Shown here one piece after another: positions 29,730 to 40,604 of a stretch of 64,000 bases of DNA. The position numbers and the translations under genes are program-made. This DNA is from Acidobacteriota bacterium. GTDB lineage: Bacteria; Acidobacteriota; Blastocatellia; Pyrinomonadales; Pyrinomonadaceae. Below the pieces are notes generated by a model. It searched no databases. It was given only the letters and a program-made list of their open reading frames with translations, and had not been told where the DNA came from. The first letter of the stretch is position 1; each line of letters opens with the position of its first letter. The DNA lies in contig QHXI01000052.1 in assembly GCA_003222895.1 (NCBI GenBank), positions 1 through 64,000 of the forward strand, read 5' to 3'.

Positions 29730-31875
29730 TCACTTGGCGTTGTCGCTGAGAATGGAAGCTATCGAGGTAACGAAGTTCTCGGGTTCGATCGGCTTTGCGA
29801 CATGGATTTGGAAGCCCGCTGAAAGGGCCTGCAAGCGATCCTCGTCCGTGGCGTATGCAGTCAAAGCGACGGCCGGAATCTTCTCTGCGCGAGCATTCAG
29901 CTGCCGCAGCTTCTTTAAGAGCGTGTAGCCGTCCTCGTTAGGCATGCCGATGTCGCTTACCAAAACGTCCGGGTTCCACTCTGAAAATGCCTGCAGAGCT
30001 TCGGCGGCCGATTCGCTGCAGCGCACGTCGCTGCCACAGCGCGTGAGAATTGCGGTGAGCAGATCGCGCGCGTCTGGTTCGTCATCCACGACCAGCACAC
30101 GCAACCCATGAAGTAACTCCGGACTGTAGGTTTGAACGTCAGGCCCCTCAGAGTCAGCAGTTTCGATATTTGCGTTTTGAGTCGCTACCTGAACATTCGC
30201 CTTCAGAATCGTGATTGTGAAAGTTGTCCCGAGATTCTTACCCTGGCTCTCAACTTCGACGGTCCCCTCATGAAGATCCATCAGGTGACGCACGATAGCC
30301 AAACCCAACCCCAGGCTCAGGAGTAATTCCGATTCCTGTATCGGTCACCGAGATGCGCATGCGTGAATCCGTGCCGGTCGCATCGACGCTAACCTGGCCG
30401 CCTCGCGGCGTAAATTTGACGGCGTTGCTGAAGAGATTCCAGAAGACCTGTTGCAGACGATTCTGATCGCCAAGCACATAAGATCGCGCCGCTTCAATCG
30501 AAATATCGAAGCCGATAGATTTGGCTTCGGCGGCCGGCCGTACCGCATCAACTGCGGCCTCAATAACACTGGATAGATCGACTGGTCCCCGATCGATTTG
30601 CAGTTTGCCCGTGATGATTCGCGAGACATCCAGCAAATCGTCGATCAGTTGCGATTGCGATTTCGCGTTACGTTCTATTGTGTCGAGCGCGCGGACGGTG
30701 TCAGTGTCGTTCAGATTTTGCGATCGTAACAAGTGACTCCAACCAAGGATTGCGGTCAGCGGAGTTCGCAGTTCGTGAGAGAGTGTCGCCAGGAACTCGT
30801 CCTTGTTACGATTGGCTGCTTCAGCCTCAGCCCGCGCCGCTTGCTCGCGCACCAACAGGCGCGCACGTTCCTCTTCCGCTTGTTTGCGAACTGCCATTTC
30901 CATGCTTAGTTCGGTGGCGTGATGCTGAGCTTCAGCGTATAGAGTTGCGTTTTCGTAAGCGACGGCGACATGTGTAGCCAGATTCGAGGCCAGACGTTCA
31001 TCAGCCTCGCTGAATGAGTTCGCGCCAACTTTATTGACGAGATAGAACCACCCACTCGCCGCTGAACCCGAAATAATTTTCGTCGCCAGAAGAGAGTGTA
31101 CGGCTTCTGCTTCCTCAGCAAGCAGCAAGTCGTCGGATTCATCCAGGCGTACCGGTTGTTCGCTGGTCAGCCGATGCAGTGCTTTCTGAATCACACTCGG
31201 AATTTCTCCGTCGGAAACGAGCGGCCCTTTTGAGCTGCTGCGGAAAAAATGTCGCACGCTGTGTCCATCGTCATCGAAAATCGCGACCGTGATCTGCTCA
31301 GCATCAATAAGTGCTCGCGCAGATTCACAAAAGTTCCGTAGAACCCTTGCCGGTTCATGTTCGGCAGATAATTCGTGTCCGAGATCGATTAGCATGCGCA
31401 GCCGTTCGAGGTTCGCGTTCTCAAGCTCGCGATTTTTCTCTTCCAACAGTTCCGCTTGCCTTTTTACTTGGCGCGTCTTTTTGAAGAGCTCAACAAAGAC
31501 CGCCACTTTCGAGCGCAGGACCGCCGGATCGATCGGCTTGACGATGTAATCGACTGCGCCGAGGGAATAGCCGCGACTGAGATGGGTGTGCCCCGTCGTG
31601 TTCGCCGTCAAAAAAATTATTGGAATGTCGCGCGACTTTTCGCGCCCGCGAATCAACTCGGCAGTCTGCAGGCCGTCGATGCCCGGCATGTAAACGTCGA
31701 GCAGAACCACGGCCGCCTCGTTATCGAGTAGATAACGCAAAGCATCATCACCCGAGTTGGCGCGAATCAGGTTGCGGTCCGGCGCCCGCAGAATTGATTC
31801 AAGCGCAAGCAGATTCGTCGCGCTGTCGTCGACCATTAAAATATTTATGCGGTCTCCCGCCGTGGAATCAGTCAC
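29730..31875 (-). pseudogene. REC-GAF-histidine kinase-REC hybrid, frameshifted
   Basis: GTG start at 31875, overlapping the upstream gene by four bases. The first frame (31875-30268) gives a receiver (VDDSATNL, VLLDVYMPGIDG), a coiled coil, a GAF domain (about 165-330) and HisKA ([12 protein letters not shown], about residue 370) up to the G1 box DTGIGITPE. There the frame is lost. A second frame (30308-29730) resumes with GLAIVRHLMDLHEG, the G2 box, and a C-terminal receiver (VLVVDDEPDA, VSDIGMPNEDG). About 25 residues carrying the F box between G1 and G2 are absent, so the cause is a deletion, not one wrong base. The kinase domain cannot be intact as read. Confidence 0.85.
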
Positions 31876-34800
31876 AAGTTTTCATCCTGTCCGGAAAGCC
31901 AGACTCGCAGCAGGGAAAGCAATTGATCGATATCCAGGGGTTTCGAAATGTAATCAGAGGCGCCAACTTCCAAACAATGATCGCGATCGGCCTTCATCGC
32001 CTTGGCCGTCAGTGCGATGATTGGCAGGTTTCTAAATTTCTCCATGCCGCGAATTGCGCTGATCGCTTCATAGCCGTCCATCTCAGGCATCATGATGTCC
32101 ATCAGCACCGCTTCAACGCCGGGCGTTGCTTTCAACAGGTCGATGCCACGCTGACCATTTTCCGCGTGAACAACTTTCATGTTGTAGGACTCGAGCGCGC
32201 TGGTCAGCGCGAAGATGTTGCGTACATCGTCATCGACGACGAGCACTTTGCGTCCGGCCAGAACCGGGTCGCGTCGCGTAAGCTGTTCGATCATTCGGCG
32301 TTTCGACTCCGGCAGATTAGCTTCGACGCGATGCAGGAACAGAGCCGTCTCGGCCAGCAGACGCTCCGGCGAATCAGCTTCTTTGATGATCACCGAAGTT
32401 GCCACCCGGCGCAGATGCGTCTCTTCCTTTCGGGTCAGCTCCTTGCCCGTGTAAACGATGATCGGCAGGTCTGAATTCTCCTTCCCGGTTTGCAGTTGCT
32501 CGATCAATTCAAAGCCGGTCATATCGGGAAGTTTCAGATCGAGCACCATGCAATCGAATTTCTTATCTTTCAAACGACTGAGCGCTTCCTCTCCCGTACC
32601 CACGGCAGTAGTCCTAACGTCGCTATTGCCAATCAATTCCACGACGCTCATGCGCTGAACGTCATCATCTTCGACCACCAGCAGCTCGCGAGCGTCGCGC
32701 GCGAGGAAGTCATTGATGTTGTCGAATGTCCTGGCCAAATCGCCGTTAGTCACGGGCTTCAGCAGATGCGTGAACGCACCCTGGCGCAACGCGCGGCGGC
32801 GCTGTTCTTCGACACTGATGATATGCACGGGAATATGGCGAGTTCGCGGATCGTGCTTCAAACGATCGAGAATGGTCCAACCGTCGCGATCCGGCAGTCG
32901 AATGTCCACTGGCAAAGGCCGCGTCGTCTTCGACGATCAGCACTACGCGATCGCCCTCTTCGATTTCCATGCGATCGTCGATCACCGGCGATGGATCGTT
33001 GACCAGTAAGGCTTCGCTATTGAAGGTTTCCGCCGGCGTCCACGCCGCTTCCATTTCTTTGGACGTTCGCCTGCGGCTGATTGGCGGCGCTACTGCGCGC
33101 GCCGCTTGATATTCGCGCGGCAGGTAGAGCGTGAACGTGCTCCCTTCGCCCGGCACGCTGGTTACGCGAATCTCGCCCCCAAGCAATCTGGCAATCTCGC
33201 GACTAATTGAAAGGCCCAGGCCCGTGCCGCCGTATTTTCTACTGGTCGTTCCGTCAGCCTGTTGAAATGCTTCGAAGATAATTCGCTGCTTCTCGGCAGG
33301 AATGCCGATGCCTGTGTCGCTGACTGAGAAGGCGATGATGTCCTTCGCGCGATTTAGCGATTCGAGATAGTACTTTTCATCCCTGGCCGCCGGAGCAATT
33401 TTCAAGACGACATTGCCCTGCTCAGTGAACTTGAATGCGTTCGACAACAGATTCATCAGAATCTGTTGCAGCCGCTTGTCATCGGTAAGGATGAGCGGAC
33501 TCAAATCCTCGCTCCGCTCGATAAAGAAGCCAATGTTCTTGTCTTGCGCCAGTTGATGGAAACTGCGCTTGAGCTGATCGCCGATGTCGTCGATCAAAAC
33601 ATCAGCAACTTCGATACCCATCATTCCCGATTCGATCTTCGAGAGATCGAGAATGTCATTGATCAGCGAAAGCAAATCCGAACCGGATGAGTGAATCGTT
33701 TCTGCGAACTGCACCTGTTTCGACGAAAGATTCTCTTCTCCATTCTCTGCAAGTTGTCGCGACAGAATGAGCATGCTGTTGAGCGGCGTGCGTAGCTCGT
33801 GCGACATGTTTGCGAGAAACTCTGACTTGTATTTCGAAGTCAGCGCCAATTGCTCGGCCTTCTCTTCCATTTCCCAACGCGCTTCTTCGACTTCGCGGTT
33901 CTTGGCTTCGACTTCCGCTTTCTGCCGCGCAAGCAACGCCGCTTTGTCCTGTAGTTCTTCGTTGGTCTGGCGCAACTCTTCCTGCTGGCTCTTCAGCAAG
34001 TCTTCCGACTCGCGCAGCGATTGCGCCTGTTGCTCCAACTGCTCGTTTGTCTTCTTCAGCTCGTCCTGCTGACTTTGCAGCTCGCCTGCCAGTGACTGAG
34101 ACTGCAGCAACAGATCCTCAGTACGAGTGTTCGCTTCGATCGTGTTCAGCACGATGCCGATACTTTCGGTTAATTGATCGAGGAACGTTAGGTGTGTGTC
34201 GCTGAAGATTTGGAAGGTGGAAAGCTCGATGACGGCTTTTACTTCGCCTTCGAAAAGTACCGGCAAGACGACGATGTTATTCGGTGGCGCTTCGCCGAGC
34301 CCCGACTTTATCTGCACATAACCTGACGGGACGTTCGTTACCAGAATGCGTTCTTTCTCGAGCATGCATTGACCGACCAGGCCCTCGCCCGCATGATACG
34401 CGTTGGCCAAATTCTTTCGCTTGTTGTAGGCATAACCGCCCAAAAGCCTCATAGCCGGCTCGCCGTTGTCGCTGTTGTTCACATAGAAGACGCCCTGCTG
34501 CGCATCAACCAGCGGCGCCAATTCCGACAGGACCATCTGCGCAACGGTTTTCATGTCGCGCTGGCCTTGCAGCATGCGGGTAAAGCGCGCGAGGTTCGTT
34601 TTCAACCAATCCTGTTCGGTGTTCTTCTGCGTGGTGTCCTTGAGATTGAGAATCATCTCGTTGATGTTGTCTTTCAAAGCGGCCACTTCGCCCTGTGCTT
34701 CGACCGTGATCGATCGCGTCAGGTCGCCCTTGGTCACGGCCGTGGAAACCTCAGCGATGGCCCGCACCTGCGTCGTCAGGTTTTCGGCGAGACCGTTTAC

Positions 34801-37578
34801 GTTGTCAGTCAGGTCGCGCCAGGTTCCCGCCGCGCCGGGCACGTTAGCCTGGCCGCCGAGTTTCCCTTCCACGCCCACCTCGCGGGCCACCGAACTCACC
34901 TGATCGGCGAACGTCGCGAGCGTGTCGGTCATGTTGTTGATGGTGTCGGCCAGTTCAGCGATTTCGCCTTTGGCTTCCACCGTCAGTTTGCGTTTCAGAT
35001 CGCCGTTGGCAACCGCGGTCACCACGCGAGCGATACCGCGTACCTGATCTGTCAGGTTGCTGGCCATCGAGTTCACGTTGTCGGTTAGGTCTTTCCAGGT
35101 CCCCGCGACGCCGCGCACATCCGCCTGACCACCGAGTTTTCCTTCGGTGCCGACTTCGCGCGCAACGCGTGTCACTTCCGAAGCAAATGAATTCAACTGG
35201 TCCACCATTGTGTTGATGGTGTTCTTGAGCTCGAGGATTTCGCCCTTCACATCGACCGTGATCTTTTTGGACAGGTCGCCGTTCGCCACCGCCGTGGTTA
35301 CCTCGGCGATGTTTCGCACCTGTCCCGTCAAGTTGCTGGCCATCGAGTTCACGTTGTCGGTCAAGTCTTTCCATGTTCCAGCTACACCGGGTACGTCTGC
35401 CTGACCGCCGAGTTTTCCTTCCGTACCTACTTCGCGGGCCACGCGAGTAACTTCCGAGGCGAACGAATTCAATTGATCCACCATTGTGTTGATGGTGTTT
35501 TTGAGCTCGAGAATCTCGCCCTTCACGTCGACGGTGATTTTCTTTGAAAGGTCACCCTTCGCGACGGCCGTGGTCACGTCGGCGATATTTCTTACTTGAC
35601 CCGTAAGATTGCCGGCCATGAAATTCACGTTGTCAGTGAGGTCTTTCCACGTTCCGGCAACGCCCATCACCTGCGCCTGTCCGCCCAGTCGTCCTTCCGT
35701 ACCGACTTCGCGCGCCACGCGCGTCACTTCCGAAGCGAACGAGCTAAGCTGATCGACCATCGTGTTGATGGTGTTCTTCAATTCGAGAATTTCGCCCTTC
35801 ACATCGACGGTGATCTTTCTTGATAGATCGCCCTTCGCCACCGCCGTGGTTACGTCGGCGATGTTTCGCACCTGCGCCGTCAGGTTGCCGGCCATCGAGT
35901 TCACACTGTCGGTCAAATCCTTCCAGGTTCCCGCGACGCCGCGCACATCCGCCTGACCGCCTAGTTTCCCTTCGGTGCCGACTTCGCGCGCCACACGGGT
36001 TACTTCAGACGCGAACGCGTTGAGCTGGTCCACCATCGTATTAATGGTGTCTTTGAGTTCGAGAATTTCTCCTTTCACGTCCACGGTGATTTTCTTGGAC
36101 AAGTCACCGTTCGCCACCGCCGTCGTCACCTCGGCAATATTTCGCACCTGGCCCGTGAGGTTGCCGCCCATCAGGTTCACGCTGTCGGTCAAGTCCTTCC
36201 ACGTTCCGGCCACGCCCTTCACGTCGGCCTGGCCGCCAAGTTTTCCTTCGGAACCAACCTCGCGCGCGACGCGCGTCACTTCAGACGCGAAGGCGTTGAG
36301 TTGGTCCACCATCGTATTGATCGTGTCTTTGAGTTCGAGAATTTCTCCTTTCACGTCCACGGTGATTTTCTTGGACAAGTCGCCGTTCGCCACCGCCGTG
36401 GTTACCTCGGCAATGTTTCTTACCTGGCCCGTGAGGTTACCGGCCATGAAATTCACGTTATCGGTCAGGTCTTTCCACGTTCCCGCGACGCCCATCACCT
36501 GCGCCTGGCCGCCGAGTTTTCCTTCGGTGCCGACTTCGCGCGCCACGCGCGTCACTTCCGATGCGAACGAATTCAATTGGTCCACCATCGTATTGATGGT
36601 GTTCTTGAGTTCAAGAATCTCGCCCTTCACATCGACCGTGATTTTTTTCGACAAGTCTCCGTTTGCTACGGCTGTGGTCACTTCTGCGATGTTTCGCACC
36701 TGCCCCGTCAGGTTGCTGGCCATCGAGTTCACATTGTCGGTCAAGTCCTTCCAGGTCCCGGCGACGCCCGGCACCGATGCCTGACCGCCCAATTTTCCTT
36801 CCGTACCCACTTCGCGCGCGACGCGCGTCACTTCCGATGCAAACGAATTCAACTGGTCCACCATCGTGTTGATGGTGTTCTTGAGTTCGAGGATTTCTCC
36901 CTTCACGTCGACCGTGATCTTCTTGGATAAGTCGCCGTTGGCCACAGCGGTCGTTACTTCCGCGATGTTTCGCACCTGGGCCGTCAAATTACCGGCCATC
37001 GAGTTCACGCTATCCGTCAAATCTTTCCAGGTGCCGGCCACGCCTTTAACTTTTGCTTCGCCGCCCAACTTTCCTTCGGTACCCACTTCGCGCGCGACGC
37101 GCGTAACTTCTGAGGCGAACGAACCCAATTGGTCCACCATCGAATTGACGATTTTTACCGTGCGTAGGAACTCACCCTTCAACGGCCGTCCATCAACTTC
37201 CAACGCCATTCGTTCTGAAAGATCGCCGTTCGCGACGGCGCCGATGACGCGGGCCATTTCGCTGGTAGGCCGGGCCATGTCGTCGATAAGCAAATTCGTC
37301 GAGTCAACCAGACGCAGCCACGACCCGGCGGCTGCGGGTACTCCGGCGCGATGCATGATCTTGCCTTCCTTGCCGACCACGCGGCTCACCCGATCCATCT
37401 CCTTGGCGGTCTTGTCGCTCAATTCGATAATCTCGTTGAGCGTATCGGCAATCTTGCCGGCCTCGCCGGTCCATTCCCCTGGCAGGCGCACCGAGAAATC
37501 GCCCTTCTTAAACGCCACTAAAGTTTTCAGCAGCAGCTTGGTATTGAGTGAATCATTGGTGACGGTTTGGGTTCGCAT
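31872..37578 (-). pseudogene. Poly-HAMP giant hybrid histidine kinase, frameshifted
   Basis: The first frame (37578-32746) encodes an N-terminal HAMP-like unit, nine or so 92-residue HAMP repeats (about residues 105-930), one half unit, a GAF domain (about 990-1150), a long coiled coil, HisKA ([12 protein letters not shown], about 1258), an intact HATPase ([20 protein letters not shown]) and the start of a receiver ([12 protein letters not shown]). The frame is then lost; the second frame (32915-31872) resumes at [11 protein letters not shown] with the first receiver's Asp, followed by two more complete receivers. About 40 residues of the first receiver are missing. No membrane helix: a cytosolic sensor, resembling the fungal group III (Nik1-type) kinases. 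ATG preceded by GGAAGGAAA. Confidence 0.87.
34780..37265. repeat. Tandem 276-bp HAMP-coding repeats
   Basis: About nine tandem DNA units of 276 bases, e.g. the segment at 35171 recurs at 35447, each coding one 92-residue HAMP module ([20 protein letters not shown] ... [13 protein letters not shown]). The middle copies are nearly identical in protein sequence, with small changes (QASVPGV, QAQVMGV, QADVKGV, QADVRGV). Such near-identity suggests recent copying or gene conversion. Confidence 0.92.
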
Positions 37579-37892: not shown

Positions 37893-40523
37893 CTAAACAA
37901 AGGCGAAATCAAACTGCTCTTGAAAGATCAGCGGGTCGCTGCTGATGTCGATCGTGCCGAGGTAATCTTCGATTTCATTCAGCACGTCGCGTTCGGATCC
38001 GCGCAGAGCTTTCGCAACTTCGGGATTCACGCGCAGCATTGCCTGCCGCGATCCTTCACCCTCTTTGGAAAGCCGTCGCGCCTGCTCAAGAATCTCGTAA
38101 CAAATCGTCTGCGGTGACTTCACCAGGCCCGCGCCCTGACAATGCTGACAAGGCGAACACAAGGTGCGTTCGAGCGATTGCTTCACGCGCTTGCGCGTCA
38201 TGATCACCAAACCAAAGTCGTTGAATGAAAGAACTTTGGTCGGCGACTTGTCGCGACGCAGAGCTTCCTGCAAAGTCTGCATCACACGCTGGCGATTGCG
38301 CCGCTCTTCCATGTCGATCAGATCGAGCACGATGATGCCGCCTAGATCGCGCAAGCGAATCTGTCGCGCAATTTCTTCGACGGCTTCCATGTTCGTGCGC
38401 GTGATCGTGTCTTCCAAACGCGTGGCGCCGCGGCCTACGAACTTGCCGGTGTTCACGTCGATCGAAACCAGCGCTTCCGTCTGATTGATGACCAGATAGC
38501 CTCCAGACTTGAGCCACACCCGCGGCTTGATCGCCTTATCGATCTCTGCTTGCACGCCGTACGCTTCGAGAATCGGCTCGTCACGCGTGTAGAGCTTCAC
38601 TTTCTTAACCATGCGCGGCTGCATGCGATTCACGAACTCGACGATGCCTTGATATTCGTCCTCAGAATCGATGCGAATCGCCGTGAAGTCCTCGGAAAGT
38701 TGATCACGCAAAATCCTCTGCACCAAATCGAGATCGCGATGGACCAGCGCCGGCGCCTTGGCTTTTTCCGCGCTCTTTCGCATGTCTTGCCACGTACGCA
38801 ATAAATATTGAGCGTCAGCGCGCAGGTCAGCTTCGCTGGCGCCAACGCCCGCAGTGCGTACGATGAAGCCCCCCGCCGGAGACTTTTCGTCGGCGTGAAT
38901 TTTTTGGATCAGTTTGCGCAAGCGGGTGCGTTCGCTGTCGGAATCGATCTTGCGCGACACTCCGAGATGCTCGACCGTCGGCATGTAAACCAAATAGCGT
39001 CCCGGCAAAGCGATGTGCGAAGTTATGCGCGCGCCTTTCTTGGCGATCGGTTCTTTCGCAATCTGTACGAGAATCTCCTGCCCTTCGCGCAGCAAATCGG
39101 TAATTGCAGGCTGACTGCGATCGTGACGAGTCGGACGTCGACGCCCGCGTGGAGCTGGGCGGCGGCCGCGGGTTTCGCTCTGCGGCGCCTCCGCTGGCAG
39201 AGCTTCAGGCTGATCGGCGACTTCTTCCGCAGGCTCGAAATGTTCATCGATCGGATCGGCCGCTTGCACTTCGTCGGGCTGATCGAGTGCTTCGGCCTCT
39301 TCGTCATGACCGTTTGCGCCGTTGCCGTCCGCGTCTGCCGCGCCTGACTCCGATCGTTTCACAGGACGACGTCGGCGCCGGCCACCGCGACGCGTCGCGA
39401 ATTCTTCGTGAGGTAGGCCGGTCGTTATGCTCGCATCGGCATCAGGAAACGCATCGACCGTGGCTTCGGTCGCTTTATCAGCGTTCGCAGTTTCAGCTTC
39501 TTCGTCTTCTGATTTTTTTGATTTGAATAATCGCCCGATCACACCGGCCTTTTTTCGACGGGTGGTTTCTTTCTTCGCTGGCGCCGAATGAGGAGGAGGT
39601 TCCGAGCTTGCGGCCTCTTCATCATCGCTCACGCGTTCGAACGAAACTGAGCGCGCGCTTTCGTCGGCAATTTCATCAATGAAAGTCCGAACATGAGCCG
39701 CTTGGATTTCCCTCGTCTTCTTTGGCGCGATTTCAGCCGCAGCCTCTTCTTCGTCAGCGATACGCTGAAAATCACCGCTTTCAGTAAGTCCTTCACCTAG
39801 CAGCGAACCAACTGGCGCGCTCGCCACGTCTTCAAGATCGAATTCGACGGCATGAACGGCGTCCATGATTCTTTCCTGAAGCCGCGCGTCCTTGAACATT
39901 TCCCCGTTCATCGCGCGCTCTTCATCATCGCTGACGCGCTCGAACGAAACGCCGCTGGTTGCAAACGGCGTGTCGATTGGTTCGGCTTGCATCGGAATGA
40001 TGCTGCGTTCTTCGACTTCCGGCGATGCCTGAGACTTCGCGCGGCTACGACCGCGGCCACCGCGTCGCCCGCGACGACGTGTGCCGGCTTCTTGTGGCTC
40101 TTCAGTTACTTCTTCGGCGGCAATCGCCGCCGGGTCGAGTTCACGCAGCGGTTCTGCGCGTTCGTGCGTCGCTTCTAGTTGCTGCTCGCGCTGCACGCGA
40201 GATAGTTCAATATGTTCCGCAGCGGCGCGCGTCGCAGCTTCCGTGTCGCCTTTCTTGGATTTGTCGACGACGATGCGCTCGAACTCGGCTTCTTCATCGA
40301 AGAAATCGGTTACGTAAAGAAACGCGTCGCGATCGAGTCCGATGTCGACAAATGCGGATTGCATGCCGGGCAGGACGCGCATCACCCGGCCTTTGTAAAT
40401 GTTCCCGACGATGCCCTGGTTCTGTTCACCGCGTTCGATATAGAACTCGGTAACGCGTTCATTTTCGACGATCGCGATCTTCTTTTCGCGACCGTTCACA
40501 CTAACAATTAACTCTCTTGACAT
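37893..40523 (-). CDS. Ribonuclease E/G with very large S1-domain insertion
   Basis: 876 residues from the ATG at 40523. The catalytic core is intact: the S1 start (GNIYKGRVMRVLPGMQSAFVDIG), DNase I-like metal site (IIVLDLIDMEERRN), and the zinc-link CSPCQHCQG. The S1 domain is split: between FLYVTDFFDEE and LLREGQEILVQI there is about 390 residues of low-complexity, acidic and Arg-rich sequence, where E. coli RNase E has a few residues. The insertion carries an RGG-like basic patch (RRGRRGGRGRSRAKS) and three copies of a FERVSDDEE-like motif. It cleaves RNA and may organise a degradosome through the insertion. Confidence 0.92.
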   Translation of the reverse strand: MSRELIVSVNGREKKIAIVENERVTEFYIERGEQNQGIVGNIYKGRVMRVLPGMQSAFVDIGLDRDAFLYVTDFFDEEAEFERIVVDKSKKGDTEAATRAAAEHIELSRVQREQQLEATHERAEPLRELDPAAIAAEEVTEEPQEAGTRRRGRRGGRGRSRAKSQASPEVEERSIIPMQAEPIDTPFATSGVSFERVSDDEERAMNGEMFKDARLQERIMDAVHAVEFDLEDVASAPVGSLLGEGLTESGDFQRIADEEEAAAEIAPKKTREIQAAHVRTFIDEIADESARSVSFERVSDDEEAASSEPPPHSAPAKKETTRRKKAGVIGRLFKSKKSEDEEAETANADKATEATVDAFPDADASITTGLPHEEFATRRGGRRRRRPVKRSESGAADADGNGANGHDEEAEALDQPDEVQAADPIDEHFEPAEEVADQPEALPAEAPQSETRGRRPAPRGRRRPTRHDRSQPAITDLLREGQEILVQIAKEPIAKKGARITSHIALPGRYLVYMPTVEHLGVSRKIDSDSERTRLRKLIQKIHADEKSPAGGFIVRTAGVGASEADLRADAQYLLRTWQDMRKSAEKAKAPALVHRDLDLVQRILRDQLSEDFTAIRIDSEDEYQGIVEFVNRMQPRMVKKVKLYTRDEPILEAYGVQAEIDKAIKPRVWLKSGGYLVINQTEALVSIDVNTGKFVGRGATRLEDTITRTNMEAVEEIARQIRLRDLGGIIVLDLIDMEERRNRQRVMQTLQEALRRDKSPTKVLSFNDFGLVIMTRKRVKQSLERTLCSPCQHCQGAGLVKSPQTICYEILEQARRLSKEGEGSRQAMLRVNPEVAKALRGSERDVLNEIEDYLGTIDISSDPLIFQEQFDFAFV

Positions 40524-40542: not shown

Positions 40543-40604
40543 CGCATGCATTCTGCATGCGGTGCGCGGCCATCGTTGGCGGCGCTGTCCTGCTCTTGAT
40601 TTGT
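40543..40604. repeat. Palindromic repeats upstream of RNase E/G
   Basis: Hairpin CGCATGCATTCTGCATGCG (40543-40561) followed by GCGGCCATCGTTGGCGGCGC TGTCCTGC; the second unit recurs in a gene at 51144-51171. Lies in the RNase E/G 5' leader. Confidence 0.6.

Follow-up and report, generated by a model that had tools for sequence, protein, structure and literature searches.

Where does an RNase E hold its degradosome scaffold if neither end of the protein carries one? The known scaffolds of this enzyme are mostly C-terminal (or N-terminal) ones from Pseudomonadota, Actinobacteria, and cyanobacteria. For the RNase E/G of the Fibrobacteres/Acidobacteria group, a survey from 2011 gave a length of 511 aa and named no complex (PMC3071783). 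The question is raised by a single gene in a 64,000-nucleotide stretch of an Acidobacteriota genome, hereafter the window, to which all positions refer unless another contig is named; every feature given below lies on its reverse strand.

The RNase E/G Gene and Its Catalytic Core

The open reading frame at 37893-40523 (876 aa plus stop) encodes an RNase E/G, with a match to PF10150 of 340.6 bits (cut-off 25.5) and to TIGR00757 of 490 bits (cut-off 326). The frame stops at 37893 and its start Met at 40523 is kept in relatives, with a further in-frame ATG at 40547. RNase E/G is single copy in the source genome and present in 39/40 relatives, and the nearest named Acidobacteriota records are those of gp4 isolate AA25, Pyrinomonas, Chloracidobacterium, and Blastocatellia assemblies. 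The class of the window, one of soil dwellers, is very probably Blastocatellia. In three genomes RNase E or its motif array occurs twice (G020, contigs C1 and C63; G023, C53 and C14; G146, C33 and C45); the two pieces in G023 resemble contig-edge halves, and the two full motif arrays in G146 suggest a second copy or contamination.

When aligned by phmmer to the solved E. coli RNase E (2vrt/2bx2), residues 1-73 of the query correspond to residues 1-72 and residues 470-853 to residues 86-464. The first strands and the first half of S1 (residues 1-73, 40305-40523) end in the letters FLYVTD, and the second half of S1, the 5'-sensor, the RNase H/DNase I-like domain, and the small domain are encoded at 37896-39116, without a C-terminal extension. 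Both S1 halves and the IVRTAG segment of the 5'-sensor align to the E. coli enzyme, with an insert splitting S1. The same alignment places the catalytic loop SIDVNTG at 38445-38465, with D689 equivalent to E. coli D303, the second catalytic Asp segment LDLIDMEE at 38304-38327, and the zinc-link cysteines CSPCQHCQG at 38133-38159. The enzyme looks active, since its two catalytic Asp segments, its 5'-sensor segment, and its zinc-link cysteines all have aligned counterparts in E. coli RNase E. A C-terminal scaffold was sought in the source protein and none was found, the small domain being its end 190 residues after SIDVNTG (tails of 190-194 residues), and an N-terminal scaffold is likewise absent from it.

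Anatomy of the Insertion in S1

The mostly disordered insert spans residues 74-469 (39117-40304) and comprises 396 aa, compared with 13 at this place in E. coli RNase E (phmmer), a net insertion of 383 residues, which bears out the long insertion splitting S1 that a first-pass annotation of the window had put at 390 residues. E. coli RNase E has Phe67 in its uracil pocket (PMC6538622), and the residue aligned with it here is Phe68; the insert begins six residues beyond this position. Searches of Pfam and PHROGs with the insert gave no match.

The insert opens with a predicted helical segment (residues 74-123, 40155-40304), for which AlphaFold2 gives helices at 77-89 and 94-123 and a block pLDDT of 72-83, and a basic patch, TRRRGRRGGRGRSRAK, is found at residues 148-163 (40035-40082). 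The FERVSDDEER motif at residues 194-203 (39915-39944) is the first of three FERV motifs and stands next to a conserved helix, GEMFKDARLQERIMDAVHAVEFDLED (residues 207-232, 39828-39905), which has an invariant Ala and Glu and which AlphaFold2 places at residues 200-230 with a pLDDT of up to 94. Beyond a conserved VGSLL (residues 238-242, 39798-39812; class alignment) lies the second motif, FQRIADEEE (residues 252-260, 39744-39770), and a second helix is predicted with low confidence by AlphaFold2 at residues 272-290 (39654-39710). The third motif, FERVSDDEE, occupies residues 295-303 (39615-39641). The remainder holds a second basic patch, RRKKAGVIGRLFKSKK (residues 322-337, 39513-39560), a conserved block, DASITTGLPHEEFATRRGGRRRRRP (residues 363-387, 39363-39437), in which A364, R379, and R382 are invariant in 34 sequences, a strongly acidic stretch, and finally the basic patch RGRRPAPRGRRRPTRHDRSQP at the end of the insert (residues 452-472, 39108-39170). 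The charge blocks alternate along the chain, with a net charge per 20 residues between -8 and +7. A basic RGG-like patch had been proposed at the outset and is indeed present, but as one of several (148-163, 322-337, 379-387, and 452-472) and not as a single element.

AlphaFold2 returned two helices only and no domain for residues 183-312, with the FERV motifs extended or disordered beside predicted helices. Docking motifs usually have this form. The full-length model (pTM 0.26) has a badly modelled core and displays no confident contact in cis, and because it is so poor, contacts between insert and core are not judgeable from it.

Distribution of the FERV Motifs

A strict pattern, F[EQ]R[VI]xD[DE]E, was searched in DNA with the reversed pattern as control. 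In the 4.77 Mb source genome it has three matches, all of them in the RNase E gene, and the control has none; the three FERVSDDEE-type motifs of the first-pass annotation thus stand at their noted places and are unique in the genome. Across 162 genomes of the class the strict pattern matches ~143 times and its reverse twice. Among the matches outside RNase E that were read in class genomes, the sole in-frame case in a disordered region belongs to a response regulator (L079), and the others lie either in ORFs of the wrong frame or in ordered parts of ordinary proteins. Ten further loose matches in the source genome are also out of frame or in an ordered region, apart from that in a response regulator on contig C88.

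Within RNase E, 34/36 parsed class inserts carry the motif in a total of 77 copies (0.06 expected in shuffled inserts), as do 9/9 parsed inserts of named Blastocatellia, with 17 copies. Taken together, 43/45 inserts have 94 copies against ~0.07 expected, although the two sets share at least two genomes and shuffling ignores common descent, the sequences being related and the events not independent. The motifs are therefore neither absent nor random in close relatives, the outcome that was to have counted against them, but are kept across the class far above chance. The copies are not uniform; motif 3 is found in only part of the window's family, and one family (f7) retains only a degenerate copy of motif 2.

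Conservation and Codon Constraint

Residue and codon constraint is better evidence than the shuffle counts, since it does not share their neglect of common descent. Motif 2 has an invariant R254 and D257 in all 34 aligned class sequences, and an alignment of the motif region from 30 sequences likewise shows no variation in the Asp of motif 1, the Ala and Glu of the helix that follows, or the Arg and Asp of motif 2. Many copies read RVSDDE, but the Ser position is free (A, V, I, M, L, T, or R elsewhere), unlike F, R, and D, which are retained. Within the genus, synonymous sites are saturated throughout, yet pN/pS stands at 0.109 in the motifs, close to the 0.097 of the catalytic core; it is 0.074 in the helix block including VGSLL, 0.133 in the RRGGRRRRR block, and 0.456 elsewhere in the insert. 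Random triple windows from that remaining part reach the constraint of the motifs in only 0.18% of cases. By these sequence comparisons the motifs, helices, and Arg-rich patches are under strong purifying selection. This conservation shows that they have a function, not which function it is.

S1 Insertions Across the Acidobacteriota

Comparison of the insertion across the phylum, proposed with the original annotation, revealed S1 inserts in two classes, Blastocatellia and Terriglobia, with different motifs. In the window's class the parsed inserts measure 253-572 residues. In the Terriglobia (Bryobacterales, Acidobacteriaceae) they measure 302-789 residues, and RNase E there, as here, has a large S1 insert and no C-terminal scaffold, but with LPGES[LI]xK repeats instead of FERV. 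These repeats occur in 40/43 parsed Terriglobia inserts (L086-L090, L154-L196) and FERV in none, whereas the window's class has the reverse pattern, with FERV present and LPGES absent. In ten Terriglobia-like genomes the matches to the LPGES pattern are in RNase E, one stray match aside. Other Acidobacteriota have short S1 loops (26-107 residues) or inserts with neither motif. With inserts in two classes, each with its own repeated motif, the S1 loop is, on this sequence record, a recurrent putative scaffold site in the Acidobacteriota with class-specific motifs. Three further sequences (L091, L092, and L093) have a long N-terminal RNase E extension, not an S1 insert, with the first conserved GNxYKG lying 407-633 residues into the open frame.

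Relation to Known RNase E Systems

S1 inserts of 50-150 residues have been described in alpha-proteobacteria and plants (PMC4245959), and the insert is therefore not wholly without precedent; it is a charged, disorder-prone insertion between the S1 halves and a variant of those already known, with a length of 396 residues that lies outside the described range. The closest likeness is to Caulobacter crescentus RNase E (Voss et al., 2014; PMC4245959; PDB 4oxp), whose insert occupies the same place in S1 and is charged, predicted to be disordered, and partly helical. However, the Caulobacter insert falls in the 50-150 range, the main scaffold of that enzyme is C-terminal, and FERV has not been reported in it. 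The DEAD-box helicase RhlB of Caulobacter binds a fragment of RNase E made up of S1 and the 5'-sensor (PMC4245959), and so, by analogy, there is precedent for an S1 insert taking part in partner binding. In plant chloroplast RNase E, deletion of the S1 insertion lowers activity (as cited in PMC4245959), and the insert there is shorter.

The C-terminal scaffolds of Pseudomonadota (E. coli, P. aeruginosa) resemble the insert in being long and disordered and in combining Arg-rich RNA-binding patches with short motifs, and the P. aeruginosa scaffold contains SLiMs, some of them repeated (PMC11964227). They differ in place, C-terminal there and inside S1 here, and the motif sequences are unrelated. 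Open-access papers yielded no account of a degradosome in this phylum and none of either the FERV or the LPGES motif.

A Probable Scaffold Within the Catalytic Domain and Its Alternatives

We consider it probable that the S1 insert is a degradosome-type scaffold placed inside the catalytic domain, by the RNA groove, and not at the C-terminus, with docking of partners as the function that we infer for it. The original suggestion of a scaffold inside S1 holds to the extent that no other place is available, the protein having neither a C-terminal nor an N-terminal scaffold; that a degradosome forms there is the less certain part. Each FERV motif would act as a short linear motif docking one partner from RNA metabolism, and repeats in two or three copies would add avidity, with 8-12 sites per tetramer if the enzyme is tetrameric like E. 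coli RNase E. Patches of the RRGGRRRRR type between acidic stretches may capture RNA and favor condensation. Partner and RNA would thereby be kept beside the cleavage site, and the insert would do the work of the E. coli C-terminal scaffold.

The main rival to this scaffold is that the FERV motifs act in cis, their acidic segments mimicking RNA or closing S1 so that the insert gates substrate entry to its own tetramer. The Caulobacter S1-insert helix enters the RNA site and its acidic residues have been proposed as an RNA mimic (PMC4245959), and the position of the insert beside Phe68 and the acidic content of the motifs would suit such a role. We nevertheless regard it as unlikely, given that three spaced copies along a chain of ~400 residues exceed the need of a gate, that Terriglobia have the unrelated LPGES in the motif's place despite a conserved groove, and that the AlphaFold2 model, itself weak, gives no confident contact in cis. 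The motif swap between classes and the invariant residues also bear on a second alternative, in which the insert mainly binds RNA or forms condensates and FERV provides acidic stickers with no specific protein partner. Generic stickers need neither a class-specific motif swap, nor an invariant Arg and Asp, nor codon constraint at the level of the core, and we hold this decidedly unlikely even though the alternating charge blocks and the invariant RRGG-type block accord with it and, in P. aeruginosa, RNase E gathers into foci through SLiMs that bind RNA (PMC11964227).

The resemblance of RVSDDEE to an acidic Ser-kinase site, and the many copies that read RVSDDE, could point to a phosphorylation switch; a Ser position that varies freely beside retained F, R, and D makes this very improbable. 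An artefact or a neutral low-complexity expansion might account for the fast evolution of the rest of the insert (pN/pS 0.46), but it is hardly credible and already contradicted by the presence of RNase E/G in nearly all relatives and of the insert, with its conserved islands, in named independent assemblies as well.

Candidate Partners and a Possible Second Carrier of the Motif

The source genome encodes PNPase, at a contig edge, and a single DEAD-box helicase of the RhlE type, whose tail is short and basic; these are candidate partners of the putative scaffold, and neither is tied to the motif. An operon with a partner gene was also considered and finds no support, as the genes around RNase E comprise a histidine kinase, glycan/methyltransferase genes, and a small ORF with no Pfam match. 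The kinase, at 31600-37578, is a poly-HAMP (9-10 HAMP) GAF-HisKA hybrid histidine kinase that adjoins RNase E. Near 32746-32900 the reading frame shifts and interrupts the first of its receiver domains, through a lesion or else a fault in the assembly.

FERV-like motifs also occur, in some genomes, in a response regulator with a receiver domain, a disordered tail, and a C-terminal helix. The orthologue of the source genome (L106, C88:116737-118023) has KLERITDEPDEA, while L119 has RLERVFDEPEPD, L224 (L079/L224) has FERVVDDEP and FERIYDD, and L236 has FERVMDDPEP. The strict pattern is found in 2/31 orthologues (0.01 expected), with two more in a further set. Since most orthologues lack the motif and two of the four cases came from the motif search itself, the response regulator as a second FERV carrier is suggestive only.

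Implications

In its widest form the proposal is that the whole scaffold has moved into S1 in the Acidobacteriota, with sister classes wired by FERVxDDE or by LPGESxxK, and that FERV is a shared hub code by which tailed response regulators are perhaps recruited to the RNA-decay machine or compete for it. We advance this tentatively and with some doubt. The narrower reading, a scaffold in the RNA-binding domain, would if true place partners and RNA only a few residues from the uracil pocket, and the 9-residue peptide would then be a clear bait for finding the partner. The swap of motifs between the two classes would offer a natural experiment on partner recruitment. Overall, if the scaffold does lie within S1, its place in RNase E, and not only its motifs, would be free to evolve.
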